Made by a program: the position numbers and the translations under genes. This document shows, piece by piece, positions 10,474 to 37,048 of a DNA stretch of 37,048 bases; within the stretch, counting starts at the first letter, position 1, and the number at the start of each line of letters is the position of its first letter. The notes under the pieces were generated by a model that did not search any database, was not told where the DNA came from, and was given only the letters and a program-made list of their open reading frames with translations. This stretch comes from Phycisphaerae bacterium. Its GTDB lineage: Bacteria; Planctomycetota; Phycisphaerae; UBA1845; PWPN01. Location of the stretch: assembly GCA_012729395.1 (NCBI GenBank), contig JAAYDF010000102.1, positions 1 to 37,048 of the forward strand. Reading direction: 5' to 3'.

Positions 10474-10534
10474 GGTTTCTCTCCTTTGCGTCTGGAGACC
10501 ATTCGACGGACACGATGCTCAACTCTATCGCGGC

Positions 10535-10572
10535 CTTCTGGGTCTTGGGTTGGGTTTGCGTTTTCTGATGGT
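10535..10572 (-). repeat. Leader element similar to 4341-4382
   Basis: On the minus strand AGAAAACGCAAACCC is followed by an A/C-rich tract, lying about 62 bp before the GTG start of the GH32/43-like gene. See the matching element upstream of the GH99-like gene. Confidence 0.3.
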
Positions 10573-10610
10573 CCGATCAAGCCGTTGCTCGATAGTGAGG
10601 ACTCGATTGT

Positions 10611-11894
10611 TCAGGGTCCCAGCAGGCGTTCGACTTTGCCGGCGAGAATGTGCCGGTTGAGTTTCGTGATGTAGCTTTTCTGAGGCTCTTCGTGCCAGGC
10701 CGGCGCGTCCGGGCAAAAGTAGCAGGTGGGCAGGATTCCCCAGTAGCCCTGCTCGATGGCGGTATGGACGGCATTCTCGACGACCCAGCGTCCGGCGGCG
10801 GACTCTTCGAATCGCGAATGGAGCGGCGGATAGAGATTGTAGCCTTCGTCGATGACCGCGGGCACGTTGTATCGCCGCGCCCAGTCGGCGCCCTGTTTGA
10901 TCTTGGTGGTGACGCTCTCGACCATACCATCGGCTTCGGCGCCGAACTGCCGGAAGCACCAGTAGTCGAAGCGGTTGTTGTCGAGGTTGGCGTAGAACCA
11001 CACGCGACAGATCCACGCCGGGTGGACGAAGTCACCGACGTTCACGCGGGCGACGAATTCTTCCCACGGGGTGAAATCGGGTTTGAGGATCCATCGGAGG
11101 AACTCGTCGTTCATGTCCGGGCCCTTGTCGATGTCCCACAGGGCTCCGCAGAAGAGTTTGGAGAGCGTGCTCTTGCCGGCGTAGGCGTGATGGTCGACCA
11201 GTTGAGTGTTCCTCGCGAACCAGCTATCCTCAAACCAGGCGTAGTCGGCGGCGATCAGCAGATCAGGATGGCGCTGCCGGAGGAAATCGATCGCCTCTTC
11301 GGACCGGAGGCGTTTGGCTTCGTCTTCTCCCGGCACGTAGTTCATTTCGTTGTGAACTTCGACGTAAGCGATGGTCCTTTCCAGGCCGCGGTCCTTGATC
11401 TCGTTGATCAGGCGATCGTGGGTTCTGGCCATGTGCATGAACCAGTCGGTGTCCGGGACGGAGAGGATCTGGCGGCGGATGTCGCGGTCGGCGGCGATGG
11501 GAGGCGTTTCCTGGAACTGCCAGCTCGTCAGGGCGAGACACATGTCGTATCTGGCGGCCAGATCGACCAGTTGCATCAGGCGCTCGTGGACGTCGAGCGT
11601 GACGCCGCGGTATTCGCAGGACCGGTTGTTGGTCCGGCCGAAGGGGCCGGCGAAGGGAGCCAGCTCGATCCGGCCGCGCCGCCGGCCCTGCGGGTCGCGA
11701 CACCAGTCGGGGGCCACGTCGATGCGCAGGCAGTTGAAGTGGCGGTCCTTCGACTCGGCGACGGCGCGTTCGAGGTCCTCATAGGCTTCGCCGGGGCCGG
11801 AGTTGGTCAGCCACCAGTATCCCCAGAAACCGATCGCCAATCTCGGCGGCAGGTGGGCTGGTATTGTCGGCGATGCGATGACTTCATGGCTCAT
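10611..11894 (-). CDS. Cellulase-like clan GH-A glycoside hydrolase
   Basis: 427 residues forming a probable (beta/alpha)8 barrel. The strand-4 acid/base signature is YVEVHNEMNY with Glu183 after Asn182, and the strand-7 nucleophile is likely Glu350 in VPAVIDEGYN, the two-glutamate pattern of clan GH-A retaining enzymes. The opening RLAIGFWGYWWLTNSGPG and many aromatic residues fit the sugar-binding cellulase-like family (related to GH5). No signal peptide, so action on imported oligosaccharides is more likely than on polymer. The ATG at 11894 has GAGAGGAGA just upstream. The substrate is unknown. Confidence 0.65.
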   Translation of the reverse strand: MSHEVIASPTIPAHLPPRLAIGFWGYWWLTNSGPGEAYEDLERAVAESKDRHFNCLRIDVAPDWCRDPQGRRRGRIELAPFAGPFGRTNNRSCEYRGVTLDVHERLMQLVDLAARYDMCLALTSWQFQETPPIAADRDIRRQILSVPDTDWFMHMARTHDRLINEIKDRGLERTIAYVEVHNEMNYVPGEDEAKRLRSEEAIDFLRQRHPDLLIAADYAWFEDSWFARNTQLVDHHAYAGKSTLSKLFCGALWDIDKGPDMNDEFLRWILKPDFTPWEEFVARVNVGDFVHPAWICRVWFYANLDNNRFDYWCFRQFGAEADGMVESVTTKIKQGADWARRYNVPAVIDEGYNLYPPLHSRFEESAAGRWVVENAVHTAIEQGYWGILPTCYFCPDAPAWHEEPQKSYITKLNRHILAGKVERLLGP

Positions 11895-12534
11895 GGGCGT
11901 CTCCTCTCCGGCTTGTCCTTTCGACGGTCGCGACTCTGTTCGGTCATGCTATCCGGCTTCCCGGTTGTTTCAAGAATATGTTTCGCAGGAAGCTCAGATG
12001 GCGGGGGCCTGCCGCCCTGCTGGGCTTCTCCCACAGAGGCGCGGAGACGCAGAAGGAGGAGACAGGGCCCAGGCCAAGGTCCGTCGGCCGGTGTGGCGAT
12101 TCCTGGCAGATCGGTGGCGGCGCGGTGGATGGCGCGATACAGGAAGATGCGAACGGTCGGCGTGAGTTCGCTAGTATACCCACGGTACACAATTTCGGGA
12201 TGGCCACGCGGTGAGCGTTTGCGCGGTGACGGCGGCGGGTCGTGATTGGCGGGAGATGCAAAGTGGTACGGGGTGGCGCGTCCCTGCGTTTGTGGAAGAA
12301 CCCGCGGCCTCTGACGACTGGCTTTTGGCTGGAAATCGCTTTTTTGTGTTGATGAAATCGCGTTTGGCGCGTCCGAAAGCGGGTTTCGGAGAACTTTATA
12401 AAATTTTTCATCTACAAGCACACACTCTGAACTAGACTTTCCGCAGGCACCGGGGTATAGTAAGTCAAGTGGTTAGCGCAGCAACGAATTAAAGAGCAGC
12501 GAGCTTAAACGATATTTTGCCAACCCATGTTGCC
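11895..12534. other. Gene-free stretch between the glycan region and the tRNA/integrase element
   Basis: No credible gene in about 640 bp. It contains a dispersed-repeat-like block at 12026-12060 and an AT-rich patch around 12395-12420 that could carry promoters but has no good -35/-10 pair. It marks the left edge of the accessory region. Confidence 0.5.
12026..12060 (-). repeat. Dispersed repeat of the CTGCGTCTCCGCGCCTCTGTG type
   Basis: On the minus strand this block reads TTCTGCGTCTCCGCGCCTC and on into TGTGGG, and in one frame gives FCVSAPLWE. I recall near-identical short blocks scattered through many environmental bacterial genomes, often mistranslated as small proteins. That link is from memory and was not searched. 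Confidence 0.35.
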
Positions 12535-12699: not shown

Positions 12700-12708
12700 T
12701 TTGGTCAA

Positions 12709-12782
<74 letters not shown>

Positions 12783-12836
12783 AAATATCGCTAAATCAAG
12801 GCTTTATGAACGGCTGCGATTTTGTGACTTTCCAGC

Positions 12837-12857
12837 ACTACAACCTTGACTACAACC
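12837..12857 (+). repeat. Two direct repeats ACTACAACC, 12 bp apart
   Basis: Copies at 12837-12845 and 12849-12857 flank and overlap the -35 box of the integrase promoter. This placement fits an operator or recombinase/excisionase arm site. The function is inferred. Confidence 0.45.
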
Positions 12858-12874
12858 ATTCTGGGGATTATAGT
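12846..12874 (+). promoter_or_regulatory. Sigma70-type promoter of the integrase gene
   Basis: TTGACT (12846-12851), 17-bp spacer, TATAGT (12869-12874); each box is 5 of 6 to consensus. Transcription would start near 12881, giving a leader of about 37 nt. Confidence 0.6.
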
Positions 12875-12917
12875 ACTCCCTTGTTCGCCGATCAAATTGT
12901 AGCCGAAGGTCTGTGCC

Positions 12918-14060
12918 ATGGCAAAACTCAGTGGCAAAAAAGGCAACCATTCATCGAAGTTCCCCCTTACTCTACACCCGACGGGCCAGTTTTGCAAGAA
13001 GATCAGAGGCAAGCTGTATTATTTTGGAACTGATAAGAAACAAGCGCTGCAACGATACCTCGAACAGGCGGCTTTCCTCCACGCTGGCAAAGCCGTCAAG
13101 CCAACGGCAGCAGGCGACAGGGTCTCGATCAAGACGTTGTGCAATCTGTATCTTCAGCACCAGAATGTAAGGGTGGATGCAGGAGAAATAAAGCCTCGGC
13201 AGCTATATGACCAGACATCGCTGCTTCGAGGATTCGTCAGGTTCGTCACCCCGAATCGTAGCGTTTCTGATATTTCCACAGCCGATCTCAGCGCTTACCG
13301 AGAAAAGCTGATCAAGCAGCGGAAGGCTACCACGACGGTCAACAATCACGTTGCTGCCATCAAAGCCATGTATCACTGGGCGATGGAACACGAAATGATC
13401 ACGTCCATGCCCAATTTGAAGGCGATCAAGAAGGTTACGCCGAGTAAGGTTACCAGGCCGACCTTCACGACGGAGCAGATCAAGACCTTGCTTGGCCACG
13501 CTAATCCGCAGATGCGAGCCATGATATGGCTAGGGTTGAACTGTGGGCTAGGTTGTACCGATTGTGCCGAACTTCTCTGGCAGCACGTTGACCTCGACAC
13601 GGCGAGAATTGACTTTCCCCGAGGGAAGACCGGCGTCGGAAGAAACCTGCCCCTCTGGCAAGAGACGGTTGAAGCGCTTCGACAGATACCTCAGCGAAAT
13701 GAACGCGTCTTCAACACGCGCAGAGGGAATGCCTGGGTCCGAACGGTTGATAAGACAGATAAGGATGGAATGACCAAGTTCACCAAGGACAACGCCCTCA
13801 GCAAAGAGTTCGCCAAGTTGATGAAGAAGGTTGGGCTCAAGACAGAAAAGGGCGTCGGGTTCTACACGCTCAGAAGGACAGCTGCCACATGGACGGCTCG
13901 ATCCAAGGATCCCTTTGCCGTTCAGAAACTGCTCGGGCACGCCGATCTGAAGATGGCAAGCACGTACGTTCAGGATGTCTCCGAGCAGACGGATCGAGCC
14001 ATCAACAACAGCCGACGTTTCATAGTTTCAGATAGTTCTTCATCTTCGGCAGACGCTTGA
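12918..14060 (+). CDS. Tyrosine recombinase / phage-type integrase with altered catalytic set
   Basis: 380 residues: a basic N-terminal arm-binding part (1-60), a SAM-like core-binding domain (about 70-165) and a catalytic domain. The usual first arginine motif (GLRxxE) is replaced by GLGCTDCAEL at 210-219, and the HxLRH box reads FYTLRRT, keeping only the Arg (319) and losing both histidines. GHA (His341) and the nucleophile Tyr350 in ASTYVQDV are kept. I associate this pattern with a planctomycete integrase group. It should catalyse site-specific integration and excision of the neighbouring element. It lies 136 bp from the tRNA-Arg with its own promoter. The end overlaps the convergent HTH gene by 41 bp. 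Confidence 0.8.
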   Translation: MAKLSGKKGNHSSKFPLTLHPTGQFCKKIRGKLYYFGTDKKQALQRYLEQAAFLHAGKAVKPTAAGDRVSIKTLCNLYLQHQNVRVDAGEIKPRQLYDQTSLLRGFVRFVTPNRSVSDISTADLSAYREKLIKQRKATTTVNNHVAAIKAMYHWAMEHEMITSMPNLKAIKKVTPSKVTRPTFTTEQIKTLLGHANPQMRAMIWLGLNCGLGCTDCAELLWQHVDLDTARIDFPRGKTGVGRNLPLWQETVEALRQIPQRNERVFNTRRGNAWVRTVDKTDKDGMTKFTKDNALSKEFAKLMKKVGLKTEKGVGFYTLRRTAATWTARSKDPFAVQKLLGHADLKMASTYVQDVSEQTDRAINNSRRFIVSDSSSSSADA

Positions 14061-22003: not shown

Positions 22004-22585
22004 TTACTTCTGGTCTGATGTCAGCATCGCCTGGCCCTCGGCGGTAATCTCCCATACGCCGCGGGGCGAGTCGCGTTTGAGCAGGCCCTCGTTGACCATG
22101 CTGTTGCGTGCCCACTGCGCGGCGTTGCGCCAGCGCGGGTTGTCGGGTCCGCTGGCCAGCGGTTCGTAGTCCACGTCCTTGAGGATCGGCTTCATGAGCC
22201 GGCCCACCCGCTCCAGCACTTCGGCCACTTTGCCGCTGCCGCCCATCTCGTCAAGCACCCTCAGAATGGGCCGGTAGTATGCCGACTCGTGCGTACGAAC
22301 GCCCTTGCGCAGCTTGCCGAGGTTGCGTCGTTCGGTACGGGTCTGCTCGTCCTCATCCCGCTCGGCCGCCGCCGCCATCTGCTCCCATTCCTTCCGCAGC
22401 GCGGCGACCCGGTCACGGAACGCGGTGAGCACTCCCGACCGCTCCAGGGCCTCTTTCGCCTTGTCGTAGTCGCGGCCCTGGAAAGCCCGCGATCCGACGC
22501 CATTGACGAAGTCGATCTCGGCCTCGACTTCCTCCAGGAGCATCTCGAACGCCGAGGATACGTTGGACGGATTGTTTTCGATCAT
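22004..22585 (-). CDS. Mrr_N-type winged-helix protein
   Basis: 193 residues. An N-terminal helical, charged part (1-100, coiled-coil-like, rich in Glu and Arg) is followed by a winged-helix domain of the Mrr_N type: YYRPILRVLDEMGGSGKVAEVLERVG, then WRNAAQWARNSMVNEGLLKRDSPRGVWEITAEG. In Mrr restriction enzymes this domain contacts DNA before the nuclease domain, but no nuclease domain is present. It is the last gene of the four-gene operon, 6 bp after the RhuM gene, with its ribosome binding site inside that gene's end. Likely a specificity or regulatory subunit of the restriction-type system. Confidence 0.7.
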   Translation of the reverse strand: MIENNPSNVSSAFEMLLEEVEAEIDFVNGVGSRAFQGRDYDKAKEALERSGVLTAFRDRVAALRKEWEQMAAAAERDEDEQTRTERRNLGKLRKGVRTHESAYYRPILRVLDEMGGSGKVAEVLERVGRLMKPILKDVDYEPLASGPDNPRWRNAAQWARNSMVNEGLLKRDSPRGVWEITAEGQAMLTSDQK

Positions 22586-22591
22586 GAATGC

Positions 22592-23668
22592 TCAGTCCTT
22601 TTTTCGCTTCCTGGTAGTCTTGCGCGGAGACGGTTGAGTCGTGCGGGTTGACTCCAGTGCCTTCGCCGTAGACCTCAGATCATCCAGATAGCGGTTCTCG
22701 GCAGCTTGTTCCGCCGCCAATCGCCGCCTTTCGACGAAAACCCCATACTGGGTCTCGGCCCAAGATCTGGCTTCTTCCTGGCTCACCGAACCCAGGCCCT
22801 CTAACACTGGAAGCTCGGTGTCGCGAAGGAATTTGTCCAGGAAAACCGTCCAGTCTCGCATTCTGATGTCCTGCCGCCGCTGGGCCCGGAACTCAGCCTG
22901 ATCGAGGAACATCACGACGATGCGGTTCAGCGTGTCGATTTCTCCTTCAGCCAGGTAATTCTTTGCCGTCGATACGTCGCGTTTGAGAACCCGTCCGCCA
23001 CTCCATGTCATCAAGCCCATGTTGGCTTGGTCAGCATCAGCCCGTCGGCGGATGATCTCGGCCGCCGTCATCCCACTGGCGGCGTAGTGCATCTTATTCT
23101 GCATGGTGGCGAAGAAGAGTTGCGTCTCCTGTTCGCCTTCACGATAGTCTACGGCGAGAGCGAGAATCTCACGGATACGCTGATACACCCGCTTCTCACT
23201 GGCCCGGATTTCGCGAATGCGGGCGAGCAACTCGTCGAAGTAGTCGCCCAGACGATCACGGCCTTTGAGGCGGTCGTCATCCAGGGTGAACCCCTTGACA
23301 AGGTACTCGCGAAGCCGCTCGGTGGCCCACTGACGGAACTGAGTGCCGCGGAGGGACCGCACCCGGTAGCCGACAGCCAGGATCATCTCAAGGCGGTAAT
23401 GCTTGGTTCGGTATCTCTTGCCATCCGCGGCAGTTATTAAGTATTCCTTAATAACTGCCCGCTCTTGCAACTCCCCGTCTCGCAAGATGTTACGAATATG
23501 AATGTTGATATTGGAGACTGAGGTCTGGAAAAGCTCAGCCATGTGGGCTTGGGTAAGCCAGACGGTTTCATTCTCCAGCCGCACCTGAATGCGGCTCAAT
23601 CCGTCCTCCGTCTGGTAGAGGACGATTTCGGAATGGGCCTGCGGGACTTCTTCTGGTGGATCAGTCAT
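22592..23668 (-). CDS. rhuM: RhuM family protein
   Basis: 358 residues with the hallmarks of the RhuM family: EIVLYQTEDGLSRIQVRLENETVWLTQAHMAELF at the start (an HTH-like DNA-binding start), SVSNINIHIRNILRDGEL, KHYRLEMILAVGYRVRS, and a C-terminal AKNYLAEGEIDTLNRIVVMFLDQAE region. The biochemical role is not established; the family is named from a Salmonella pathogenicity island and is common inside type I restriction operons. The Lys/Arg-rich tail may bind nucleic acid. GGAAGG precedes the ATG. It sits 12 bp after the methylase stop and 6 bp before the Mrr_N gene, so it is clearly co-transcribed. Confidence 0.85.
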   Translation of the reverse strand: MTDPPEEVPQAHSEIVLYQTEDGLSRIQVRLENETVWLTQAHMAELFQTSVSNINIHIRNILRDGELQERAVIKEYLITAADGKRYRTKHYRLEMILAVGYRVRSLRGTQFRQWATERLREYLVKGFTLDDDRLKGRDRLGDYFDELLARIREIRASEKRVYQRIREILALAVDYREGEQETQLFFATMQNKMHYAASGMTAAEIIRRRADADQANMGLMTWSGGRVLKRDVSTAKNYLAEGEIDTLNRIVVMFLDQAEFRAQRRQDIRMRDWTVFLDKFLRDTELPVLEGLGSVSQEEARSWAETQYGVFVERRRLAAEQAAENRYLDDLRSTAKALESTRTTQPSPRKTTRKRKKD

Positions 23669-23680
23669 TACTACCTTCCT

Positions 23681-26600
23681 TTACTTCCACCGCTGCTTGC
23701 AGTATTCAACGGTCTCTCTGACGGTTAGCTGACGGGTGGAGTTGCCGGCGCGGATGAACATGATCTCATCGTTGCCGTCCTTGACGTAGGTGGGTTTGGG
23801 CGATGGTCGAACCGCGACGCGGCAGACTTCGTGCTCGCCCATGCCGTGGAAAGTCACCGAAAGCAACGGGCTGCTGTCCTTGCCGAACTGGCCCAGCAAC
23901 AGGGTCACCAGCCAGTTCTCGAAGCCGTCCCGGTTCTGTTTTTTGCCAAGGGTCTTGAAGTCGTGACGGAGTCCGACGATCCGCCCGTCGTCGGCCACGC
24001 CGATGAGCAACGTTCCGCCGTCGGTGTTGAGGAAGGCCGCCACGGTCTTGACGATCACCATTTCCAACGCTTTGTTCAGTCTGTTCTCATTCATATCCCA
24101 GCGGGCGGACGATTTGAATTCGGCATTGGGGCCCTCGCCGGCGGCGATCAGGGCAGCCGCTTCCTGGTCGGCGGACTTCGGGGCGAATTGCCGGTAGGCG
24201 GCGAGGGCATCATCCTTCACGCCCTGCGGGACCAGGGGAAAGGTCGTGAGGATGTAGGCAAACTCCTCCTCGGTCAGGCCGTAGAGGTGGGCAATCAGGC
24301 CATCGAGTTCGGCCCGCAGCTTGGCCCGTTCGGCTGGGTCGGTCGCCCCCTGCTTATGGCTCTTAAGGCCGACCTCGCGGGCCAGGTCGTCGAACTCGGG
24401 CATCGTGCAGATCAGCCGCGCCGCGCGCTCCACGATCGGCCTGAAGTCCTTGTCCTTCGCCGTCAGGCGAGGAACAGGAAGCTGGTAGACGTAGAAGAAA
24501 TTCAGGGTTGTCGTAACCTTCATGCGGATCAGGTAGTCCACCACGTAGCTGTTCCATGCGGCGCACAAGAAAAGCTGCTCGCCATCCCGAATGAAGCGAT
24601 CCTCCTCCTCGTCAAAGATGCGAACGGTCGGAATCTTGTTGCCGTGGAAAGTCGGCGGGATGATCGACGACACCATCGTGCGCTCGTTCGTGTTCGAGGC
24701 GATGTCCCGAAATCCCAGCCGGTACGCCTGATAGTCGAGCCGTTGTCCTTCGTCTTCAGTGCGGCCGAGAACAACGGCGCGGGCTTCCTTCTCGTCCACC
24801 CAGTAGCGCGGCTCGGCGAAGCGGTGGTTGAAGTGCCAGATCATCTTGCCTTCGTACAACGGTAGCCGCCCCTTGCCCGGCGCATCCTTGAATAAGTGGC
24901 TGTCGTTTGTCATGTGGAACTCGGCCGTGAAACTCACCTTCCACTTGCCGGCTACGTCTTCGCCCAGCAGTGGGAAACGCAGAGCCTTCTCGCAGATGGT
25001 CACGTCGATGTCGTTCTTGAACTCCATGACGGAGAGTGAGTCCGGCGAGAGGCGTTTGACCAGATCGACGGAGATGTCGATCGCACCCTGGTCGGGGAAG
25101 CGGTCAAGCTCGGCCACGTCGAGTCGCATGAACGCGGCGGGGAACGACTTGGTCTTGCCGCCCTTGGCAAAGGTCAGGACGACGAACTTGAAGCTGCGGT
25201 GAACGTTCTCGAAGACCTCCTTGCGGTTTTCGATGCAGAAGAGGCCAGTGACCTGGGCCTGCTCGAAGAGCATGGTGCGAAGCTGCTTGGCCCCCAGGTC
25301 GGTGTAGATGCCCGAGGGGATGACGATGCCACACTGCCCGCCGGGGCGCAGCAGGTTAAAGCACTGCTCGGCGAAGAGCTTGTAGAGGTTGATGTCGGAG
25401 CCAGCCTTCTTGCCGCCGACGATACTGATCTGGTTGCGGTATTGCGGCGCGGAGCGGTAGAAGGCGCTGACGTGGGGATAGGAACTGAGGTACTGCAACC
25501 AGGCGTCGCGGATATCGCCGTCCTTGAGCAGGTCGGCCTGCTCTTCCTCGAACTCGTGGATGGTCATCTTCTTCTTGGTCACGAGGTCGGAGTAGTCCTC
25601 GAAGAACTCCTTGGCGTTGGGCTTGAAGATCTCCCAGGGCGGGTTGGTGATGATGGCGTCGAAGCCGCCGCGTTCGTTGAGGACCTGGTCGAACTCGTAG
25701 CCCCAGTGGAAGGGCTTAAGGTCGCGGATGTCCTCGGGGGTCATGGAACGCTTGACGGTTTTGCTCGGCTTGCCCTTGCGGTCGTCCCAAGTGGCCTGCT
25801 CATACTTGATTCCGAGGCGCTCGAACTCGGCCAGGAGGATGTCGTCGAGGGTGTCGAGGGCCTCCTGCTTCTTGGCCTGGATCGAGTCGCGCAGGCCGCG
25901 GAGGTCTTCGGCGTAGGCCGCGGTGTGGCGGTAGGTCTCGATCAGGCGGTTCTTCTCGGCAACGATCTCGGCATAGGGCTTGCGGAAGAGGTTCCCCTGG
26001 GCGTTACGTTTTTTGAATTCGGCGTCGTCCACGTGCATCAGACCGATGAGGCTGTTGCCGGGCAAGATGTTGAAGTCGATATTGGGCAGGGGTTCCAGGT
26101 CGTCGGCTGAGGCGGCGGAGGCGACCAGGGCGAGGAAAAGGCGGAGGCGGGCGATTTCCGTGGCCTCCTCCATGATGTCCACGCCGAAGAGGTTATCAGT
26201 GATGATGGATTTCTTGATGAAGTAGTTGATGCTGCGGTGCTGCTTTTCGGTGCGGGCGAGCCAGTCGGACATGGCGCGGTCGCTGAGGAACTTGATCTTG
26301 CCGACGACGGCGGAGTAGAGGTCGATGAGGGTCCTCATCGCGGCGACGAGGAAGGCCCCTGACCCGCAGGCGGGGTCCAGGAGGGTGAGGCGGGGCAGGA
26401 CCCTTTGGAGCAGGTGATGGCAAAGGGGGGCGTCCAGGTCGAGCAGAAGCTCGGCCACGGAGTCGTACTGCCTCGCCTTGGTGACGCCGGGGATTTCGGG
26501 CGTGTTGACGGCGTCGAGGACCAGACGGTGGATGGTCCGCTCGCAGAGGTACTCGGTAATCTCGGTGCGGGTGTAATAGGCCCCGAAGGCCTTCTGGTTG

Positions 26601-27613
26601 ATGTACTTTTCGAAGATGTAGCCGAGCACATCGGGGTTGATCTCGTCGTCCCGGCCGCCGGGCGTGTCGTTGAGGTTCCAAGAGTAGCGGGCGAAGAGGG
26701 CCAGCAGATTCTCGAAGGCCACGTCGGGCACGGCGATACGGGAGTATTTCTGCTCGATGGCGTGAGGCAGGAAGAGGCCGCCGTTGAGGTACTTGATCGT
26801 TCCCAGCAGGGCGCGGGCCTCGGGCGAACGCTGCTCTTCGGGCTTGGCGAACCCTTCGAAGAAAAGACACTTGAGGAACTCGCCATAGAAGCGGTCCTTG
26901 CCCTGCTTTTTGGACTGGGTGAGCCTGTGCTGGAGGTACTCGCCGTCGCCCCCGTCGAGGAAGAACTTCCGCTGGAGGAAATAGATGAACATCATCCGGT
27001 TGAGCAGGATGGAGGCGTACCAGCGGCGGTCGTGATCGTCGTCAATTCCCTCGATGAGGTCCAGGAAGGCGATGTGCTGCTCCTGGAACTCGTTATAGAA
27101 CTTTCTGGTGACCCGCTCGACGTCCAGGGCGTTTTTGAGCCTGCCGGTGACTTCGAGGAGGGAGACGTTGCCGGTGGCGTCGAAGTCGCCGATGTCAAAG
27201 ACCATCGCGCTGAGCTTGCTCAGGAACAGGTCGCCGGGCTGCCCCCGGACGAAGATGTGGTCCCGGGCGTAGCTCCTGCCCTGCTCACGTTTCATCCAGT
27301 ACCAGAGGCTCTGGGACCGCCGGCCATCGACGAAGATGAGGAGGTTTTCGTGGTGATGGGCGGCGATTTCCTTATGGATCGCGGCGCGGGTCCTGGCGTC
27401 GGGGATTCTCCCGTCGCCGTCGGTGGGCTCGATCTCGAAGATCACAACGCCGGCAAGCTGGGCGATCTGCCGACGGTTGAAGGAAACGTCGCCGCAGCCC
27501 ATGGCGACGGGCCGGCAGTCGGCGGGCTGGGACCAGCCCAATTCCTCGATGAAGAGCTTGAGGAATTCGAAGTCCTGGAGACGCCTGCGGGCATTTTCGA
27601 GGTCGATGGCCAT
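23681..27613 (-). CDS. Eco57I-type DNA methyltransferase with C-terminal AlbA_2/Schlafen-like domain
   Basis: 1310 residues. A long N-terminal helical region (1-400) leads to an adenine-specific methyltransferase: SAM motif LLDPACGSGAF (411-421) and catalytic NPPW (657-660) in FDAIITNPPWEIF, the gamma-type order typical of Eco57I and BREX/DISARM-like methylases. A target-recognition-like region follows. Residues 1163-1310 form an AlbA_2 (divergent Schlafen/AAA_4) domain: NAEFKSSARWD, LNTDGGTLLIGVADDGRIVGL and a closing FIRAGNSTRQL. This fusion is unusual and may add nucleic-acid binding or RNase function. It should modify host DNA at N6-adenine while the neighbouring helicase acts on unmodified DNA. 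The start is 3 bp after the helicase stop, so translation is probably coupled. Confidence 0.85.
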   Translation of the reverse strand: MAIDLENARRRLQDFEFLKLFIEELGWSQPADCRPVAMGCGDVSFNRRQIAQLAGVVIFEIEPTDGDGRIPDARTRAAIHKEIAAHHHENLLIFVDGRRSQSLWYWMKREQGRSYARDHIFVRGQPGDLFLSKLSAMVFDIGDFDATGNVSLLEVTGRLKNALDVERVTRKFYNEFQEQHIAFLDLIEGIDDDHDRRWYASILLNRMMFIYFLQRKFFLDGGDGEYLQHRLTQSKKQGKDRFYGEFLKCLFFEGFAKPEEQRSPEARALLGTIKYLNGGLFLPHAIEQKYSRIAVPDVAFENLLALFARYSWNLNDTPGGRDDEINPDVLGYIFEKYINQKAFGAYYTRTEITEYLCERTIHRLVLDAVNTPEIPGVTKARQYDSVAELLLDLDAPLCHHLLQRVLPRLTLLDPACGSGAFLVAAMRTLIDLYSAVVGKIKFLSDRAMSDWLARTEKQHRSINYFIKKSIITDNLFGVDIMEEATEIARLRLFLALVASAASADDLEPLPNIDFNILPGNSLIGLMHVDDAEFKKRNAQGNLFRKPYAEIVAEKNRLIETYRHTAAYAEDLRGLRDSIQAKKQEALDTLDDILLAEFERLGIKYEQATWDDRKGKPSKTVKRSMTPEDIRDLKPFHWGYEFDQVLNERGGFDAIITNPPWEIFKPNAKEFFEDYSDLVTKKKMTIHEFEEEQADLLKDGDIRDAWLQYLSSYPHVSAFYRSAPQYRNQISIVGGKKAGSDINLYKLFAEQCFNLLRPGGQCGIVIPSGIYTDLGAKQLRTMLFEQAQVTGLFCIENRKEVFENVHRSFKFVVLTFAKGGKTKSFPAAFMRLDVAELDRFPDQGAIDISVDLVKRLSPDSLSVMEFKNDIDVTICEKALRFPLLGEDVAGKWKVSFTAEFHMTNDSHLFKDAPGKGRLPLYEGKMIWHFNHRFAEPRYWVDEKEARAVVLGRTEDEGQRLDYQAYRLGFRDIASNTNERTMVSSIIPPTFHGNKIPTVRIFDEEEDRFIRDGEQLFLCAAWNSYVVDYLIRMKVTTTLNFFYVYQLPVPRLTAKDKDFRPIVERAARLICTMPEFDDLAREVGLKSHKQGATDPAERAKLRAELDGLIAHLYGLTEEEFAYILTTFPLVPQGVKDDALAAYRQFAPKSADQEAAALIAAGEGPNAEFKSSARWDMNENRLNKALEMVIVKTVAAFLNTDGGTLLIGVADDGRIVGLRHDFKTLGKKQNRDGFENWLVTLLLGQFGKDSSPLLSVTFHGMGEHEVCRVAVRPSPKPTYVKDGNDEIMFIRAGNSTRQLTVRETVEYCKQRWK

Positions 27614-27616
27614 GGT

Positions 27617-30600
27617 CTATTTGCCCTCCCTGGCGGACGGCTTGGACGGTTTGAGGGGCAGCCTGGCGTGCGGGCCGGGCTGCGGCCGGAACCAGTCGGT
27701 CTGGTCCTTGTTGGCGGACAGCCCCATGGAGCAGATGATCCTAGGCTCCTGTGTCTGCTCTTCTTCATGGATCAGGCACAGCCGGTCTTCCTCACGCAGG
27801 GCGACGACCAGGTGGGCCAGGTCGCTGTCACAGATGCCGGACCGAAGCTGACGATTGAGGGTGTCCGTCGCCGTCTGCCGCAAGGGGTAGCGGTAGATTT
27901 CCTCGATGGCCCTGGTCAACTGCTCGGTGGCGAAGAGCGTGCCCTTGATCTCTTCGGCGTAGGCTTTGAGCCGTTCATAGGTCCGGAAGCGGGCCCCCGA
28001 GGGTCGGCCGAGTTCGCCGCCGACGGATTTCTCTTCCTCGACGATCAGGTCCACCCCCTTGCGGACCAAGGCGTGGTGTTCCTCCAGGCGCGGCAGGGCC
28101 GGGGTGTCGGGCGGACACTCGGCGGCCTTGAGGATGGCGAATTGCGATTCGGTAACGCTGTGGCCCTGTTTGCCCATGTAGGCCAGGGCGTCGTTGCCTT
28201 CGGCGGTGCGGAGATAGACCAGGACGCCTTCGGGTTGGCTTGCCGTCGGGGAGTGGGGCTTGGTCGCGTAGATCACCGGGGGGAGTTCGGCGATGAGCTT
28301 TTCGAGGCTGGGGTCACGATCGATGGCGTTCTTCCATATTTGATAGGCGTAGGAGGCCAGGTCCACCTCGGTATCGGCGTCGCCGTCGAGGATGCCCGCC
28401 TTCTCGGTGAACAGGTCGCGGACGACCTGATCGTTGCGGTCGTCCTCGAAGAACGATTCGTCGGTGCCAACAACTTCGGCGTTCTCCTGAAGCCGTCGGC
28501 GAACGCGGGCACGGAGTCGGATGATCCGCTCCACGCCGTCGGCGGGCAGGAAGGAGTAGCATACGATCTGCTCCGACTTCTGGCCGATGCGATCCACGCG
28601 CCCGACCCGTTGAATGAGCCGGATGATCGCCCAGGGCAGATCAAAGTTGATAACAGTGGAACAATCCTGGAGGTTCTGGCCTTCGCTCAGCACATCGGTG
28701 GCGACCAGGACGCGGAGTTCGTCGGCGGGGGCAATCCGATCCCGCTTATTGTTGCTGACCGGGCTGAACCGCCAGGCCACGGCGGTGGGATTTTCGCAGT
28801 CGCCGGTGACACCAACCGATCGATTGACGCCCGCGGCATGGAGTTGGGCGTCGAGGTAGCGGACGGTGTCGGCGAACTGGGTAAAGACGATGACTTTTTC
28901 GCCGGCATGCTTGCCGGTCAGTAGTCTGACCAACGCGGCCAACTTGCTGTCAGAAGCGGGGTCCCACTCGCCACAGACTTTCAGGACTTTCAGGAGGGCC
29001 TCCGCGTCCGCCTGAAGGTCTTTAGCCAACGAGGGCACGAAGAGGTCCGGCCGCAGCCACTTGAACCGCCGTTTGTACTGGCTGGCGTACTCGGTGTACA
29101 CCTCGGCCGCGCGGTTTCTGAAATCTTCGGGAGCCTTGAGAAAGACCGACCCATTGGCCGGCTCCTCACCTCCGTTGTCATTGTCTTCGAACAGCCCCGA
29201 GATGTGGTCTTCATCCGAGATGCGGGCGTCGAGCAGGCCCATGTCCTGCGTGCCGATGGGAATGAGCAGCCCCTCTTCGATGGCGTAGAGATAGACGTAA
29301 TTCCGCAGTATGTGCCGCTGGATGGACAGGAGGAAGGCGTGGCCGCAGCTCTCCAGGCGCTTGAAGAGGTTTGTGCGGCAGAATCCCATCAGCCGCTTGC
29401 CCGCTCGCGAAAGGTCCTGCATCACCCGGCCCTCGTCCTGAGTGGGCGGTTTGTGCGGCCTTGCGGCGACGTAGTTCCCCAAGCCGTAGCGGGGCAGGGT
29501 CAGCGCGTTGATCGTGTTGACCACCTGATCCCCGTAGAGGCGGGCATACTGGTCATCGTTCTTCTTCTCGTTGATCTCAAACTGAGCCCTCTTCGGGACC
29601 CTCACGGGGAAGTACGATCGCGTGCCGTCCTCAAACGTCAGGTATCTTCGGCCGGAGGCGGAATCGGTCTCCGCGTAGTTGTCCTGGATGAAACTGCGAG
29701 TCCGGCGGACCAGATACAGTCGCATGAGTTCCCGCCAATCGTCGGCGAACTCGCTCTTTTCGAAAGCGGCCAGGGACCTTACCGGACACTGATGACGCCG
29801 CTTGAACTCCGTCTCCCCAAGCTCACGGAGCAGCCGTTCCGGTCGAACGCCGATGTCCTTGTCCTCCGTGACGAACAGCCGCAACTGGTTCGACAGGTCC
29901 AGGTAAGTCTTGTTGTACGGCGTGGCCGAAAGCAGGATGCACTTGCTCTCGTTTTCCCGAAGATACTCCTGAATGGCCCGGTAACGTTTGCCGTCACGGT
30001 TGCGGAGGTTGTGGCTTTCGTCGAGGATCACCAGCCGGTAGCGGCGAAGGTTGACCAACTCCTTGGTAACCTGCGTGATCGAAAGTACCCTGGCCCGAAG
30101 CCTGTACTGTTCGCGGTAGTCTTCCCACATGGGCACGAGGTTCTTGGGGCAGATGACCAGCGTCTCAAGTCCGTGGTCGTCCTCGAAGATCCGGGCGACG
30201 GCCGTGGCCATCAAGGTCTTGCCCAGGCCAACGACATCGCCGATCAGAACGCCGCCCCTCTTGTTCAGGTGATGGGCGGCGATCTTGACGGCGGCCTTTT
30301 GAAACTCGAAGAGTTTTTCGCCGAAGTCGGTGGGGACCTTGAACTCAGTAAGGCCGGCGCGGGCTTCTTGTGAAAGGTGGTAGGCGATTTTCAAGTAGAT
30401 GTGATAGGGCAGAACCGGCTCGGTCCGCGCCCAACTGCCTTCGATGATGTCAACAAGCTCCTCCGAGATATCGATGCACCACCGGTCTGTCCACCGGTCC
30501 TCGAACCACTTGGCGAGCTTCTGACATGCATCATGGTCCATCACGTCGATATTCAGCTCGCCCTGGCTCGACAGGCCCGCGAATGTAAGGTTGCTGCTGC

Positions 30601-31075
30601 CCAGGAACCCCACCATCGGGTTGATCGGGTCCGGCCGGAACAACAGATAGAGCTTGGCATGAAGGGTGTGGCGAAGGAACAGCTTGACGACCACCTTCTT
30701 CGCCTTGATCTGTGCGGCCAAGCGACGAAGCCCCGCCTCGTCCTGGTCCGTGGGCGCTCCGATGGCCAGCTGCTCGCGGAATTCCTCGGCGAGTCGCGCC
30801 TTGAGTCGCAGGATGGTCTGCGTGTCGATCGCACCGTCGCGTGAGACGAGGCTCATCGCGGCCCGAAGCTCCTCTTGCGGGAGCCGCTGCATCCCAACCA
30901 GCAGACGGCAGCACTGACCGTCGCCGCCGGCCCAGCGCTCGATGTAGGAGTCCAGTTGCTTCCATCCCCGCAGGTTGAAGTAGCCCACACAGAAGTCGGC
31001 GTGGTCCGCTGCGTTAAGGGTCTCCTGCAGTGCCGGTAGTAGCTGCTGGTCGATGTTGTCGAAAACCCGAGGCAT
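27617..31075 (-). CDS. PLD-like nuclease domain fused to an SNF2-family helicase
   Basis: 1152 residues from the ATG at 31075 (GGGAAGG upstream). Residues 1-200 are a phospholipase D-type domain with one HxK half-motif, HAKLYLLF (His139, Lys141) and GSSNLTFAG (about 159-167), of the kind found in DNA-cutting PLD proteins. The SNF2 motor follows: GDVVGLGKT (Walker A, 279-287), DESH (352-355), LLSATPYN (382-389), then helicase-C with VIVFTQF and QRVGRVDRIGQ. SNF2-PLD proteins act in restriction-type defence as translocases with a nuclease; DISARM keeps similar parts (DrmD, DrmC) in separate genes. It is first in the operon with the methylase, RhuM and Mrr_N genes. Confidence 0.85.
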   Translation of the reverse strand: MPRVFDNIDQQLLPALQETLNAADHADFCVGYFNLRGWKQLDSYIERWAGGDGQCCRLLVGMQRLPQEELRAAMSLVSRDGAIDTQTILRLKARLAEEFREQLAIGAPTDQDEAGLRRLAAQIKAKKVVVKLFLRHTLHAKLYLLFRPDPINPMVGFLGSSNLTFAGLSSQGELNIDVMDHDACQKLAKWFEDRWTDRWCIDISEELVDIIEGSWARTEPVLPYHIYLKIAYHLSQEARAGLTEFKVPTDFGEKLFEFQKAAVKIAAHHLNKRGGVLIGDVVGLGKTLMATAVARIFEDDHGLETLVICPKNLVPMWEDYREQYRLRARVLSITQVTKELVNLRRYRLVILDESHNLRNRDGKRYRAIQEYLRENESKCILLSATPYNKTYLDLSNQLRLFVTEDKDIGVRPERLLRELGETEFKRRHQCPVRSLAAFEKSEFADDWRELMRLYLVRRTRSFIQDNYAETDSASGRRYLTFEDGTRSYFPVRVPKRAQFEINEKKNDDQYARLYGDQVVNTINALTLPRYGLGNYVAARPHKPPTQDEGRVMQDLSRAGKRLMGFCRTNLFKRLESCGHAFLLSIQRHILRNYVYLYAIEEGLLIPIGTQDMGLLDARISDEDHISGLFEDNDNGGEEPANGSVFLKAPEDFRNRAAEVYTEYASQYKRRFKWLRPDLFVPSLAKDLQADAEALLKVLKVCGEWDPASDSKLAALVRLLTGKHAGEKVIVFTQFADTVRYLDAQLHAAGVNRSVGVTGDCENPTAVAWRFSPVSNNKRDRIAPADELRVLVATDVLSEGQNLQDCSTVINFDLPWAIIRLIQRVGRVDRIGQKSEQIVCYSFLPADGVERIIRLRARVRRRLQENAEVVGTDESFFEDDRNDQVVRDLFTEKAGILDGDADTEVDLASYAYQIWKNAIDRDPSLEKLIAELPPVIYATKPHSPTASQPEGVLVYLRTAEGNDALAYMGKQGHSVTESQFAILKAAECPPDTPALPRLEEHHALVRKGVDLIVEEEKSVGGELGRPSGARFRTYERLKAYAEEIKGTLFATEQLTRAIEEIYRYPLRQTATDTLNRQLRSGICDSDLAHLVVALREEDRLCLIHEEEQTQEPRIICSMGLSANKDQTDWFRPQPGPHARLPLKPSKPSAREGK

Positions 31076-31210
31076 CGATCGCCTTCCCTTTGTTCTTGAA
31101 GCCGCGGCCGAGAACTTCATGGGAGTGCGTCTCCGAAGACGCCCACCCACCGGCCCCTCAAGCATCGGGAGCCGCCAAGTCGCCCTTTGCAGGGCAGAAA
31201 GTAAGTGCTA

Positions 31211-32764: not shown

Positions 32765-33703
32765 TCAGTACGATACCCGCTCTGCCGCCTCCGCCAATTG
32801 CTGTTGGGTCCTCTGCGTATAGCGTGCGGTGGTATTCAGGTTCTCATGCCCGAGAATCTGCGCCAAGGCGACGATGTCGTTGCCCGTATCCTGCAGGAAC
32901 TGATGGGCCATCGAGTGGCGAAGCAGGTGCGGATGGATGCGAAACCCGCAGATCGCCGCGTACCTATCGCACAAGGCCCGTACCCCCCGGTCCGTCAGAG
33001 GCCCACGCTCCCCCAGGAACACTCGGGACGTCTCTGCCGGCGGACGGCTCTCCAGGTACGCCGTTACTGCCTTGCGGGCCGGCAGCGGCAGCGGGACGGT
33101 TCGCTGCTTGCCGCCCTTGCCGAACCGGAAGACCACCGCCCCCGACCGCTCGTTGATAAGCAGGTCCTGTAGCTCCAGTTGGACCAGGTCACTGACCCGA
33201 CAGCCGGTGTGCAGGCTCAGACTAAAGATCGCCATCGCTCGAATGTCCTGCCGTAGTTCGACCTCCCGAAGGAGTCGGCGAACTTGTGATCGTTCCAGCC
33301 CCTTGGGCGTCAGCTGTTGGAGGCGAAGCTCTTTGACCTCCTTGGCCGGGTTGGTTGACAGATGCCCCTGACCCACGAGCCAATTCAGGTACCGCCGAAG
33401 CGAGACCAGAGCCCGATTGACCGTCGAGACAGCCTGCCGACGCTCCTCCCTCAGATAGCGTTTGAAACTCGTCACGTCCATCATGGTAATCCGCTTCGTA
33501 TCGAATGGTTCGCTGTTCGCCGCAAAAAAGAACCCGGCAAACTTCCGCAGGTCGAACCGAATCGCCCGGACCGTATGCGGGGAGAGGTCGTGGGAGCTCA
33601 AGAACCGCCCGACAAGCCCCGGCTCCTGCGGAGCGACAGGGACGCCTTCGAAAATATTATCGCCCGAATTGTGACGGCCTTCCGAACAAGAATCAGACAT
33701 CAT
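32765..33703 (-). CDS. XerC/XerD-type tyrosine recombinase with a complete catalytic set
   Basis: 312 residues. SAM-like core-binding domain (about 25-120) with [20 protein letters not shown], then a catalytic domain with every expected residue: Arg in [12 protein letters not shown], Lys in [12 protein letters not shown], the HxxR box in [14 protein letters not shown], His in [10 protein letters not shown] and the nucleophile Tyr in ARYTQRTQQ. It should cut and rejoin DNA through a Holliday-junction intermediate. It is last in a minus-strand cluster with an HTH gene (40 bp upstream) and two RuvB-like genes, unlike housekeeping xer genes. AAGGA precedes the ATG. It differs strongly from the integrase at 12918, so the two modules are independent. 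Confidence 0.88.
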
Positions 33704-33742
33704 CTGTACACTTTTCCTTCTATATTGGAGTGATATTCGTAG

Positions 33743-34228
33743 TTATCTCTCCACATTATCTGCCGAATTCTGACACTTGAGATACCGGTAGATCGCCCTC
33801 AACACTTCACTTTCATCAACGCCAGTAGTTCCTCCAGGATAGCAGGTGCGGATTGCCGAGCGGACTTGGGCGTCGGTCAGGTCATCGAGTCCCAGATCGG
33901 CCAGAGCCTCGATCAGGTCGGGATCGACCGGCTGTGTTTCCGACGCCGGTTTCGACGGACGCGGCTCCCTCGGGGCCGACGCGTAGGATCGTCGCGAGTA
34001 GAACAGAATTGGACGGTTGTTGGCTCCGTAGTTCCGTGCCCGGATCTCCAGGTTCGCCTTCTGAATTTCCGGCGGAAAGAAGGGACGCCGGGTCTCGGTG
34101 TCGTGGACCGGCGGAAGGAACACCCCCTCCTGGACCAGCTGATAGAATCGACTGCGACTCATCCCGAGCATCCGAGCCATCTCAGTTACCGATACGGCAG
34201 CTTTCAGGTTATCAGTTCTTTCAGCCAT
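33743..34228 (-). CDS. Helix-turn-helix DNA-binding protein of the recombinase module
   Basis: 161 residues. An N-terminal MerR/excisionase-like HTH (about 10-55: AVSVTEMARMLGMSRSRFYQ, then FFPPEIQKANLEIR) is followed by a basic, Pro-rich linker and an acidic C-terminal helical part (DPDLIEALADLGLDDLTDAQVR). The likely role is directing the recombinase or regulating the cluster. The start overlaps the end of the RuvB-like gene by 8 bp with an ideal GGAGGTGA site, so the two are translationally coupled. No family name can be given for the C-terminal part. Confidence 0.65.
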   Translation of the reverse strand: MAERTDNLKAAVSVTEMARMLGMSRSRFYQLVQEGVFLPPVHDTETRRPFFPPEIQKANLEIRARNYGANNRPILFYSRRSYASAPREPRPSKPASETQPVDPDLIEALADLGLDDLTDAQVRSAIRTCYPGGTTGVDESEVLRAIYRYLKCQNSADNVER

Positions 34229-35204
34229 TGTTCACCTCCGCTGCGACATTCTCCTGCAGATGCCGAAGCCCCTCGCCGGTGATCATCCTCCCCCTGTCGC
34301 TCTTGCCGATCAAGCCCACCCGCAGCAGGAACTCCTCGATCGTCGTCGCGACCGTCTTGGGAGTAAGTCCGATCTGTGACGCCAAGACGTTCAGGCGTAC
34401 GGGTTCGGCCGGCTGGGCAAGGATGCGGAGGTATTTCCGCTCGATCGGACCCAGCCCCAGGGCATCGAGACCCTCCAGCCGACAGGCGGCATCGAAGTGC
34501 TCGATGGTCAGGACGGTGTCGCCTTGGCTTCGAGCGACTCGCCGAACTTCTTCGAGGATTCGCAGAGCGATTCGCGGAGTGCCTCGACTGCGTTGGGCGA
34601 TCCGATTGAAAAGGCCTGCATCTTCCATTTGCCAGCCGAGCTTGGTTGCCCGCTGGCTCAGCATGACCGTTAACTCTTCGTTGGTGTAATAATCGAACTG
34701 AAGCACGAGCTTGAATCGGTCCCGCAGGGGCTTGAGCAACTTTTCGGGGTTGGTGCTGGCGGCGACCAGCGTCAGGTTCGCCATCTCCAATACGCGTTTT
34801 CGCTTGGCGTCCGTCCCGCCGAGGAAGATCTTGCCGTTCTCCATTGCCCGATAGAGTGTGACCTGGACCTCGGGTCGCAGTTCATGGACCTCGTCAATGA
34901 AGGCGAAGTCTCGATCGCCCGGCTCCATTAAAAACCCCCTCATCTGTTCGATGTTCCGGATGTTCTGGGCGAGCTGCTCGAACATCGTCGAGCCCATTTC
35001 CTTTGAGATTAGATGACATAGCTCGGTCTTCCCGACGCCGGGCGGGCCGACCATGATCGCGTGGGGAAATCGCACTCCGTCCTGCCAGGCAGCGTTCAGG
35101 GCCACCTTGATCCGCTCGACAACTTGCCGTTGACCGATGAACTGCTCGATCACCGACGGAGTAGACGAGGGATCGTTGACTTCGTTGGATGGTTGTTCAG
35201 ACAT
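34221..35204 (-). CDS. RuvB-like AAA+ ATPase (intact)
   Basis: 327 residues collinear with RuvB, the hexameric motor that drives Holliday-junction branch migration: FIGQRQVVERI at the start, Walker A GPPGVGKT (53-60), Walker B FIDEVHEL (102-109), sensor 1 ASTNP, arginine finger in PLRDRFKL, sensor 2 GTPRIALRIL and a RuvB-like C-terminal winged helix (VLASQIGLTPKTVATTIEEF to GEGLRHL). It is shorter in the RuvA-contacting hairpin region and divergent from housekeeping RuvB, so a paralogue specialised for the cluster is likely. AAAGGAG lies 9 nt before the ATG. It is 60 bp downstream of a degenerate paralogue and overlaps the HTH gene. Confidence 0.8.
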   Translation of the reverse strand: MSEQPSNEVNDPSSTPSVIEQFIGQRQVVERIKVALNAAWQDGVRFPHAIMVGPPGVGKTELCHLISKEMGSTMFEQLAQNIRNIEQMRGFLMEPGDRDFAFIDEVHELRPEVQVTLYRAMENGKIFLGGTDAKRKRVLEMANLTLVAASTNPEKLLKPLRDRFKLVLQFDYYTNEELTVMLSQRATKLGWQMEDAGLFNRIAQRSRGTPRIALRILEEVRRVARSQGDTVLTIEHFDAACRLEGLDALGLGPIERKYLRILAQPAEPVRLNVLASQIGLTPKTVATTIEEFLLRVGLIGKSDRGRMITGEGLRHLQENVAAEVNNG

Positions 35205-35264
35205 CGCAGCAACTCCTTTGCATTCCGTGAATCATGCCGTTGAATCTCTGGACAACACGCACAG

Positions 35265-36053
35265 CTAACGGCCCGACTTGGTTTGCCCCTTGTCGGGGGG
35301 CCAGTTGTGCTTCAGGTACGCCACGCCTTGGCGGATGTGGGTCGGGGCTAAGGGACCCTTCCCTGCCTCACGAGCCAGCATCCGAGAGGCGGCGATGATC
35401 TGCAGAGCCCAGCCGGGTCGCCCCTTGGCGTCCTTGACCGCCAACGCCACCGCGTCGTCGCGGAGCGACCAGCCCAGGGCCTTGGCCCGCTGTCCCACGA
35501 CCTGGGTCAGAAGGTCCGGGGGGTAGGGATCAAACCGCAGGATCAGACGGAATTGGCCGATCACTCGCTGGCAGAGGTTGCCCTGGCCGCACACCACGAA
35601 GATGGGGCAACGGGCGATCTTGAAGCTGTGGGCCTCAAGGCGGCCGGTGACGCTACGGCTGCAGAGCACCCCGGAGCGGATGGCCGAGTACAGGGCGGAT
35701 TCGAAACCCCTGGGCAAGCTGCTCAATTCGCAGAGGACGACCAACGCGGTGCCGGACCGTTGGGCATCCAGCATGACCTCGGCGATCTCTGAGGATCGCC
35801 AGAGGCTGTCACTGACCAGCACCTCGGTCACCTCCAGTCCCAACTCGTGGGCGATGATCCGGGCGGTCAGACGCCTGCCGAGGTACGCCGGGCCGTAGAG
35901 CAGGGTTGGTCCAAAGCCGACGTGGTCCCGGCCCTCCCGACGCACCTCCCAGAACGCCTCCAGGGCGTGCCGGACCGTCTGGGTGTGGGGCGAGATCAGA
36001 TGATTGATCGTCCGGGGCTCCCACTCGTTGATGTCCATCATCGCCTCGTCCAT
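35265..36053 (-). CDS. RuvB-like ATPase homologue with ruined nucleotide-binding motifs
   Basis: 262 residues with the same order of elements as its neighbour: LLYGPAYLGRRLTARIIAHELG replaces Walker A (GPAYLGRR at 54-61 in place of GPPGxGKT), VVLCELSSLPRG replaces Walker B (Asp to Cys), then RLILRFDPYPPDLLTQVVGQRAKALGW and GRPGWALQII, which parallel LVLQFDYYTNEELTVMLSQRATKLGW and GTPRIALRIL in the intact one. ATP hydrolysis is improbable. A scaffold or regulatory subunit in a mixed hexamer is plausible. The frame is uninterrupted, which argues for function. The start is ATG 36053 with GGAG 8 nt upstream; an in-frame TTG at 36143 is possible. The winged helix is missing. Confidence 0.65.
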   Translation of the reverse strand: MDEAMMDINEWEPRTINHLISPHTQTVRHALEAFWEVRREGRDHVGFGPTLLYGPAYLGRRLTARIIAHELGLEVTEVLVSDSLWRSSEIAEVMLDAQRSGTALVVLCELSSLPRGFESALYSAIRSGVLCSRSVTGRLEAHSFKIARCPIFVVCGQGNLCQRVIGQFRLILRFDPYPPDLLTQVVGQRAKALGWSLRDDAVALAVKDAKGRPGWALQIIAASRMLAREAGKGPLAPTHIRQGVAYLKHNWPPDKGQTKSGR

Positions 36054-36188
36054 GGCAAGAACTCCAAGCTCCTTCCAGTAAACGACCTCGACAATCTCTG
36101 GACGAAACTGGCACACACCAGCATGACATGGATCCGATGTCAAGGGGGCCAGTTGTTCGCCAGGCGGGGCCTCGGCGGCCGAAAGAGC

Positions 36189-36596: not shown

Positions 36597-37048
36597 TCAG
36601 CCCTTCGCCCGCTTGAGGGCTATCTTGCCGTTAAAGTGCTTCCACCTGCCCAGGAGGTACTTGCCCGTCTCCCGCAGTTCGGGGCAGACCTGACGGTAGA
36701 TCCCGTTGTTAGGTTTGTATCCGCAGGCAATCAGCATTTTCTCCAGGCTCTCTCTTGAGTTGGCAAGTTGAGCGGCGTTGCGACAGTTCCGCCGGACCGC
36801 ATGCTCGACCATCTGCAGGCAAAACCGCAGCCAATGCCGGGCCTTCTCCGCATTGATCGTGCCCTGGTGGTACCGCAGTTCGATGCGGGGCGACCCGTTG
36901 AACAGGTGAGTCAGATTAAGCCCGTGATAGCGTTCCCACCCGGCCAACGCCCTCTGGAACGCGGCTCGGGTTCGGCATCCTGCCAGCCGCTGCGGTCCGG
37001 CGGGCATGGCTGAAGCATAGCGGCAGTTACGCCGGGAGGGAGAGACCA
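36597..37048 (-). CDS. Amidoligase family protein, C-terminal part (5' end outside the window)
   Basis: The frame is open to the right edge, leaving about 150 residues. WERYHGLNLTHLF, then IELRYHQGTINAEKARHWLRFCLQM, and an upstream NCRYASAMP fit the C-terminal half of the Amidoligase_2 family (ATP-grasp-like/COOH-NH2 ligases related to glutamine synthetase), where YHGLNL and ExRYxxGT are recurrent signatures. These enzymes are predicted to form amide bonds on peptides or cell-wall-type substrates and are common on phages and plasmids. The apparent start at 37007 is only an internal Met. It has the same orientation as the RuvB-like cluster but a 544-bp gap, so co-transcription is uncertain. 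Confidence 0.65.
   Translation of the reverse strand, partial: VSPSRRNCRYASAMPAGPQRLAGCRTRAAFQRALAGWERYHGLNLTHLFNGSPRIELRYHQGTINAEKARHWLRFCLQMVEHAVRRNCRNAAQLANSRESLEKMLIACGYKPNNGIYRQVCPELRETGKYLLGRWKHFNGKIALKRAKG

Follow-up and report, generated by a model that had tools for sequence, protein, structure and literature searches.

In the 37,048-nucleotide contig analysed here (the window; Phycisphaerae bacterium, GenBank assembly GCA_012729395.1, contig JAAYDF010000102.1), three minus-strand genes coding for a RuvB-like AAA+ ATPase (RuvB2), a helix-turn-helix protein (HTH) and a tyrosine recombinase (Rec) were found to belong to a gene set, hereafter the trio, that is conserved in Planctomycetota and located in mobile DNA. 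The trio appears undescribed: no published account of a RuvB-like/HTH/recombinase set was found in the open literature, subscription literature being outside the scope of the search. We tentatively read it as a module serving recombination in the mobile DNA of planctomycetes, in which HTH would load RuvB2 to direct the recombinase complex, an interpretation that we place somewhat short of an even chance. Its character as a recombination module is supported by the conservation of gene order and strand at 34 loci, the retention of RuvB2 motifs, the co-variation of the components and the swapping of recombinases.

Conservation of the RuvB2-HTH-Rec trio

The window carries Rec (32765-33703), HTH (33743-34228), RuvB2 (34221-35204) and a fourth gene, Deg (35265-36053, or to 36143 from a TTG start), all on the minus strand, separated by gaps of 39-60 bp and in one case overlapping by 8 bp. 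The positions and strand of the four open reading frames (ORFs) are exactly those given in the initial annotation. The four-gene order that it proposed does not recur as a unit, as only three of the genes are found together in other Planctomycetota and Deg is missing from the relatives. The broader idea of a mobile or recombination gene set did hold. Profile-based searches combined with tblastn recovered RuvB2-HTH-Rec, in constant order and strand, at 34 distinct loci from about 31 Planctomycetota genomes, window included; named carriers include Planctomycetales bacterium 10988, Gemmata sp. IIL30, Fimbriiglobus and metagenome-assembled genomes of Phycisphaerae. HTH was detected at E below 1e-30 in 21 of the 397 genomes of a class-wide sample, and about 5% of the class has the trio. 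The RuvB2 and HTH genes either overlap or are usually separated by no more than about 60 bp, and Rec usually follows 14-200 bp further on.

HTH and RuvB2 co-vary most tightly (pairwise distance correlation r=0.81, against 0.69 for Rec-HTH and 0.66 for Rec-RuvB2; 0 of 2000 permutations), these correlations partly reflecting shared descent, and the recombinase is exchangeable. Loci with similar HTH-RuvB2 pairs (44-48% identity) may carry Recs that are just 25% identical, and the pair is linked to Rec clades of only 21-25% mutual identity. In a further subfamily (L138-L140), HTH-RuvB2 is accompanied by a short tyrosine recombinase of about 200 amino acids. With L137, these loci form a second subfamily of RuvB-like and HTH genes, in which three loci out of four (L137-L140) have a recombinase of about 200 amino acids that apparently lacks the N-terminal domain.

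In a single case (L126:7625-10014) the HTH-RuvB2 pair and a 99-amino acid ORF are followed on the same strand by a large serine recombinase with Resolvase, Recombinase and zinc ribbon domains. Serine recombinases act through double-strand breaks and make no Holliday junction; this arrangement therefore speaks against a Holliday-junction-specific job and weakens the initial proposal of a role confined to such junctions.

No member of the Rec clade was found in the viral contigs scanned with Rec. Likewise, none of 72,556 plasmid records contained the trio or a match at family level; there, identity did not exceed about 37% for Rec and RuvB2, and HTH gave no hit. A viral origin was considered and rejected: the scan with Rec was negative, and RuvB matches in phage and plasmid records are 32-37% identical, like canonical RuvB.

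RuvB2 and the host RuvB

RuvB2 contains the three domains of RuvB, namely RuvB_N (E 2e-32), the RuvB AAA lid and RuvB_C, and has the Walker A and B motifs, arginine finger, sensor 2 and C-terminal winged helix-turn-helix (wHTH) intact, in agreement with its first description as a complete RuvB-like motor. The combination of RuvB P-loop, AAA lid, C-terminal wHTH and intact ATPase motifs is present in RuvB2 and not in Deg. The arginine finger is the second R of LRDR[FM]; when the sequences are aligned, it matches R170 of T. maritima RuvB, a protein for which the PDB holds an R170A mutant. The Walker A and B motifs, finger arginine and sensor 2 are kept in the aligned RuvB2 proteins of the trios.

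RuvB2 is distinct from the housekeeping RuvB of its host. It reaches 227.6 and 249.1 bits, under the RuvB equivalog cut-offs of TIGR00635 (299) and NF000868 (282), and it is 35% identical to the product of the host ruvB. The canonical genes lie on another contig, C76 (ruvA 9317-9868, ruvB 10166-11140), and RuvB2 is thus not the sole chromosomal RuvB of the organism; the opposite outcome had been named in the initial annotation as fatal to the idea of a special system.

A distant HTH/RuvB-like pair with a degenerate Walker B (DN) was also observed at L051:8494-14088, near an Hsp70 gene and a vWA-like ORF and without an adjacent recombinase.

The recombinase and the DNA-binding protein

Rec is a short XerC-like tyrosine recombinase of 312 amino acids (Phage_integrase, E 3e-28), and the view that it is fully equipped was confirmed: the R-K-H-R-H-Y set is complete, and R169, K196, H259, R262, H286 and Y295 are invariant in an alignment of eight homologues. 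XerC is its best-scoring type. With 180 and 156 bits it falls below the cut-offs for XerC (TIGR02224, 335) and XerD (TIGR02225, 330), and it stays far from those of the integron integrase (TIGR02249; 67.5 bits, cut-off 265) and of GmtY (NF040693; 27.1 bits, cut-off 340). In L049, a pair of 1179-bp inverted repeats (6162-7340 and 11190-12368; 98.9% identity) is likely an insertion sequence, one copy of which interrupts the end of Rec.

The AlphaFold2 model of HTH (pLDDT 89) consists of a MerR/excisionase-type wHTH (residues 14-66), a loose linker and a C-terminal three-helix bundle (103-153). Fold comparison gave VIA Z scores of 5.3 to RdfS and Pukovnik Xis and up to 6.9 to MerR regulators, moderate values that indicate fold alone and not function; the earlier description of the protein as excisionase-like agrees with this. 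A second structural comparison, in which no RuvA chain came up, spanned residues 8-75 only and was uninformative on the C-terminal tail. When compared by hhalign with RuvA domain III of E. coli, P. aeruginosa and planctomycetes, the HTH C-terminus gave a weak match covering the domain (score 21.7, probability 28%), above the best of 100 column shuffles (13.4) and the best of 50 decoy windows from real alignments (16.8). On this alignment, the bundle is weakly suggested to be RuvA-domain-III-like, and we treat the resemblance as a lead.

Catalytically dead RuvB-like companions

Deg codes for a RuvB-like AAA+ protein with a lid (RuvB_N, E 6e-5; TIGR00635, E 3e-10; RuvB_C, no match) in which the ATPase motifs are gone. 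The loss of Walker A and of the Walker B aspartate (to Cys) in an open frame, reported initially, was confirmed: Walker A reads GPAYLGRRL, Walker B VVLCEL, a Gln stands at the finger position, sensor 2 reads GRPG and the whole C-terminal wHTH is missing. A start at ATG 36053 (262 amino acids) is likelier than one at TTG 36143, because the first 30 residues from the TTG lie outside the homology and have low model confidence. Foldseek matched the Deg model to RuvB (E 6e-17), the model itself being built on an alignment of RuvB relatives.

No ortholog of Deg was found in 114 genomes of the order, 397 genomes of the class, the surveyed trio loci or plasmids. Together with the loss of each motif and of the wHTH, this would fit a decaying duplicate without function, an explanation that concerns Deg alone and not the trio, and to which we give perhaps one chance in four. 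Against it, Deg has remained open and codon-biased (frame-specific codon score; GC content at third codon positions, GC3, 0.86) at 24% identity to RuvB2, whereas none of 500 copies simulated under neutrality was still free of stops once identity had fallen to about 31%. The codon bias and the open frame at such divergence thus support a live gene.

Dead wHTH-less relatives that probably arose separately beside other trios also argue against decay. RuvB-like proteins of another type (246-258 amino acids, motifs lost, without wHTH) are encoded on the opposite strand downstream of Rec in L048, L049, L123, L130 and L131. In 397 genomes, a profile built from all six dead proteins found no L048-type ATPase away from trios and no additional strong member; its next matches were intact trio RuvB2s, followed by canonical RuvBs. 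In leave-one-out searches the L048-type proteins recognised one another at 71-175 bits, with L049 and L123 ranking under some intact RuvB2s, and in the tree they form one group (100/99), the unreliable placement of long branches barring a finer reading. Membership of Deg in this type was rejected, as its leave-one-out score of 29.9 bits is below that of most intact RuvB2s (96 for intact RuvB2). Since Deg falls outside the L048-type family, catalytically dead companions probably evolved at least twice beside the trio, as judged from these profile comparisons. The initial pairing of an intact with a dead RuvB-like protein therefore survives as a recurrent arrangement, a separate dead family adjoining five other trios, so that such pairs are no one-off; Deg itself has no orthologs.

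A possible mechanism and its alternatives

In the proposed mechanism, HTH would bind a specific site of the element by its excisionase/MerR-type wHTH, and its C-terminal helical bundle would recruit RuvB2, in the role that RuvA has for RuvB. The MerR/RdfS/Xis fold and a weak RuvA-domain-III match scoring above shuffles and decoys are in line with this. RuvB2, having kept its ATPase machinery and DNA-contacting wHTH, could then act at the recombination site as an element-dedicated double-stranded DNA translocase or remodeller that drives, directs or disassembles the complex of the adjacent recombinase, following a logic such as that of FtsK-XerCD or of the AAA+ helpers of DDE transposases. The dead wHTH-less paralogues (Deg and L048-type) may serve as accessory subunits or inhibitors that would break the symmetry of the ring, much like the non-catalytic subunits of clamp loaders, and tune or cap it. 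In its most specific form, the system would be a planctomycete analogue of RuvAB, in which an HTH with a RuvA-III-like tail loads a RuvB-type motor for tyrosine and serine recombinases, and dead RuvB paralogues, evolved at least twice, tune the ring; we regard this full version as speculative and rather unlikely.

Several observations weigh against the interpretation as a recombination module loaded by HTH. The likeness of the HTH tail to RuvA domain III is weak, and Pfam RuvA_C does not match HTH, although genuine RuvA from these genomes escapes that model as well. In L064 and L065, a Rec of the trio clade occurs without HTH-RuvB2, preceded by ORFs that weakly match an HUH-type replication protein. 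A second integrase is found near about nine trio loci, window included. No attachment site for Rec and no exact element ends were found, the ends of the two trio copies of genome G212 sharing no notable direct or inverted repeat. Finally, a few loci have primase- or Rep-like genes close by, which would be compatible with a role in replication.

This last point belongs to an alternative in which HTH would be a partition-type protein or an initiator binding the origin, RuvB2 would act at the element origin as a helicase or a loader, and Rec would be a resolvase of circle dimers. We consider it unlikely, although it agrees with the primase-like neighbours in L133, L140 and L073, the Rep-like genes in L064/L065, the recurrence of ArdC upstream of the trio, the best score of Rec as XerC, of dimer-resolution type, and the location of several trios in islands with another integrase. 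The primase and Rep signals are weak, under family cut-offs and limited to few loci, and the 72,556 plasmid records hold no trio.

Alternatively, HTH-RuvB2 could be a target selector or gatekeeper that decides where insertion occurs and licenses the recombinase, a task that TnsC, MuB and IstB fulfil for DDE transposases. The finding that HTH-RuvB2 stays constant while the recombinase behind it is exchanged would suit such a function, which we nevertheless judge improbable: we know of no RuvB-type AAA+ protein in this role, and no target-site pattern was found. A precedent on the recombinase side is given by Tsy elements, which pair a tyrosine recombinase with separate target selectors plus an HTH protein (PMC10293859).

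The proposal of the initial annotation, that a RuvB2-Deg hetero-hexamer branch-migrates Holliday junctions made by Rec, is equally doubtful and not favoured, for although Rec is a tyrosine recombinase, RuvB2 an intact motor with its wHTH and Deg a member of the same operon, Deg is missing from other trios, a serine recombinase, which passes through double-strand breaks, can likewise stand behind HTH-RuvB2, and tyrosine-recombinase strand exchange requires little branch migration according to textbook knowledge.

Genomic setting and cargo

Genome G212 contains two trio copies that are 84% identical in the module and have outer regions in common on both sides. Their cargo differs in the stretch that runs from the Rec stop codon to a small conserved gene, where one copy holds a GYF-domain gene and the other a Hen1/Pnkp RNA-repair operon. 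The small protein (LGxVVATxGAL type, without Pfam hit) is encoded 3' of Rec in nine loci (e.g. L057:10951-11241), with none to several genes between, and may delimit a cargo site on one side. In L047, arsenic genes follow Rec. No common motif after Rec and no core site for Rec were found. Upstream of the trio, ArdC-type genes occur in nine loci and amidoligase genes in four, among them the window, in which Amidoligase_2 (36597-37046, minus strand) is open at the contig end upstream of RuvB2.

The window also appears to contain one end of a defence island. A 42-bp repeat (12743-12784, strand not assigned) corresponds to the 5' half of tRNA-Arg(ACG) and has a perfect copy without tRNA on another contig (G000:C216:10500-10541; L210), and an integrase gene lies beside the tRNA (12918-14060, plus strand); an integrase by a tRNA and a far repeat, the features of tRNA-inserted islands, are thus both present. 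The repeats probably mark the two ends of an island that entered the tRNA gene in its 5' half (window region 12708-14060, integrase included); if C216 is the far end, the island would measure at least 34.8 kb. Its type IIG, PLD/SNF2 helicase, Mrr, RhuM and methylase genes include the defence-type cargo at 22004-31165 (minus strand), which codes for an Mrr_N protein, RhuM, a type IIG methylase with SLFN AlbA_2 and a PLD + SNF2 helicase. Within it, the gene at 23681-27613, next to that of the PLD + SNF2 helicase (27617-31165), encodes a type IIG-like restriction-methylase whose C-terminus carries a Schlafen AlbA_2 domain. The island having its own integrase at tRNA-Arg, Rec is not its tRNA integrase.

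Comparison with known systems

DDE transposases have known AAA+ helpers, and Xer is assisted by FtsK; to our knowledge, a RuvB-type motor dedicated to the recombinase of a mobile element has not been reported. If confirmed, the trio would be an example, open to testing, of site-specific recombination having taken over a motor from housekeeping repair, with a sequence-specific protein in place of the usual loader; it would equally exemplify the repeated origin of dead AAA+ subunits in a single context. It further singles out a class of cargo-carrying elements, with restriction, RNA repair and arsenic genes, in a phylum for which descriptions of mobile DNA are few.

Like the RuvAB complex, the trio includes a motor with all three RuvB domains and motifs, and HTH may stand in for RuvA, given its C-terminal bundle and the weak profile match. 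In contrast, RuvB2 is a separate deep branch under the RuvB equivalog cut-offs, its partner has a wHTH rather than the tetramer fold of RuvA, and it shares an operon with a recombinase while the host owns a separate ruvAB. In XerCD-FtsK dimer resolution, a short Xer-type recombinase is likewise aided by a DNA translocase, as Rec possibly is; here the motor is RuvB-like and encoded beside Rec and HTH, and Rec is far under the XerC/XerD equivalog cut-offs. The Gamma-mobile-trio (GmtY/GmtX/GmtZ) is also a three-gene module around a tyrosine recombinase with variable cargo, but Rec, at about 27 bits, stays far short of the GmtY cut-off (340). TnsC, MuB and IstB share with RuvB2 the status of an AAA+ ATPase dedicated to a mobile-element recombinase, whereas RuvB2 comes from another AAA+ clade and the recombinases of the trio are of tyrosine and, once, serine type.

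No TnsF-like zinc-finger protein was present among the domain matches around the trio, no search having been aimed at it. The nearest described design is that of Tsy elements, which combine a tyrosine recombinase, an HTH protein, a TnsF-like protein and a GIY-YIG protein with separate target selectors (PMC10293859). Both are multi-gene tyrosine-recombinase elements with an HTH accessory protein, and the planctomycete trio differs in that its third component is a RuvB-like motor.

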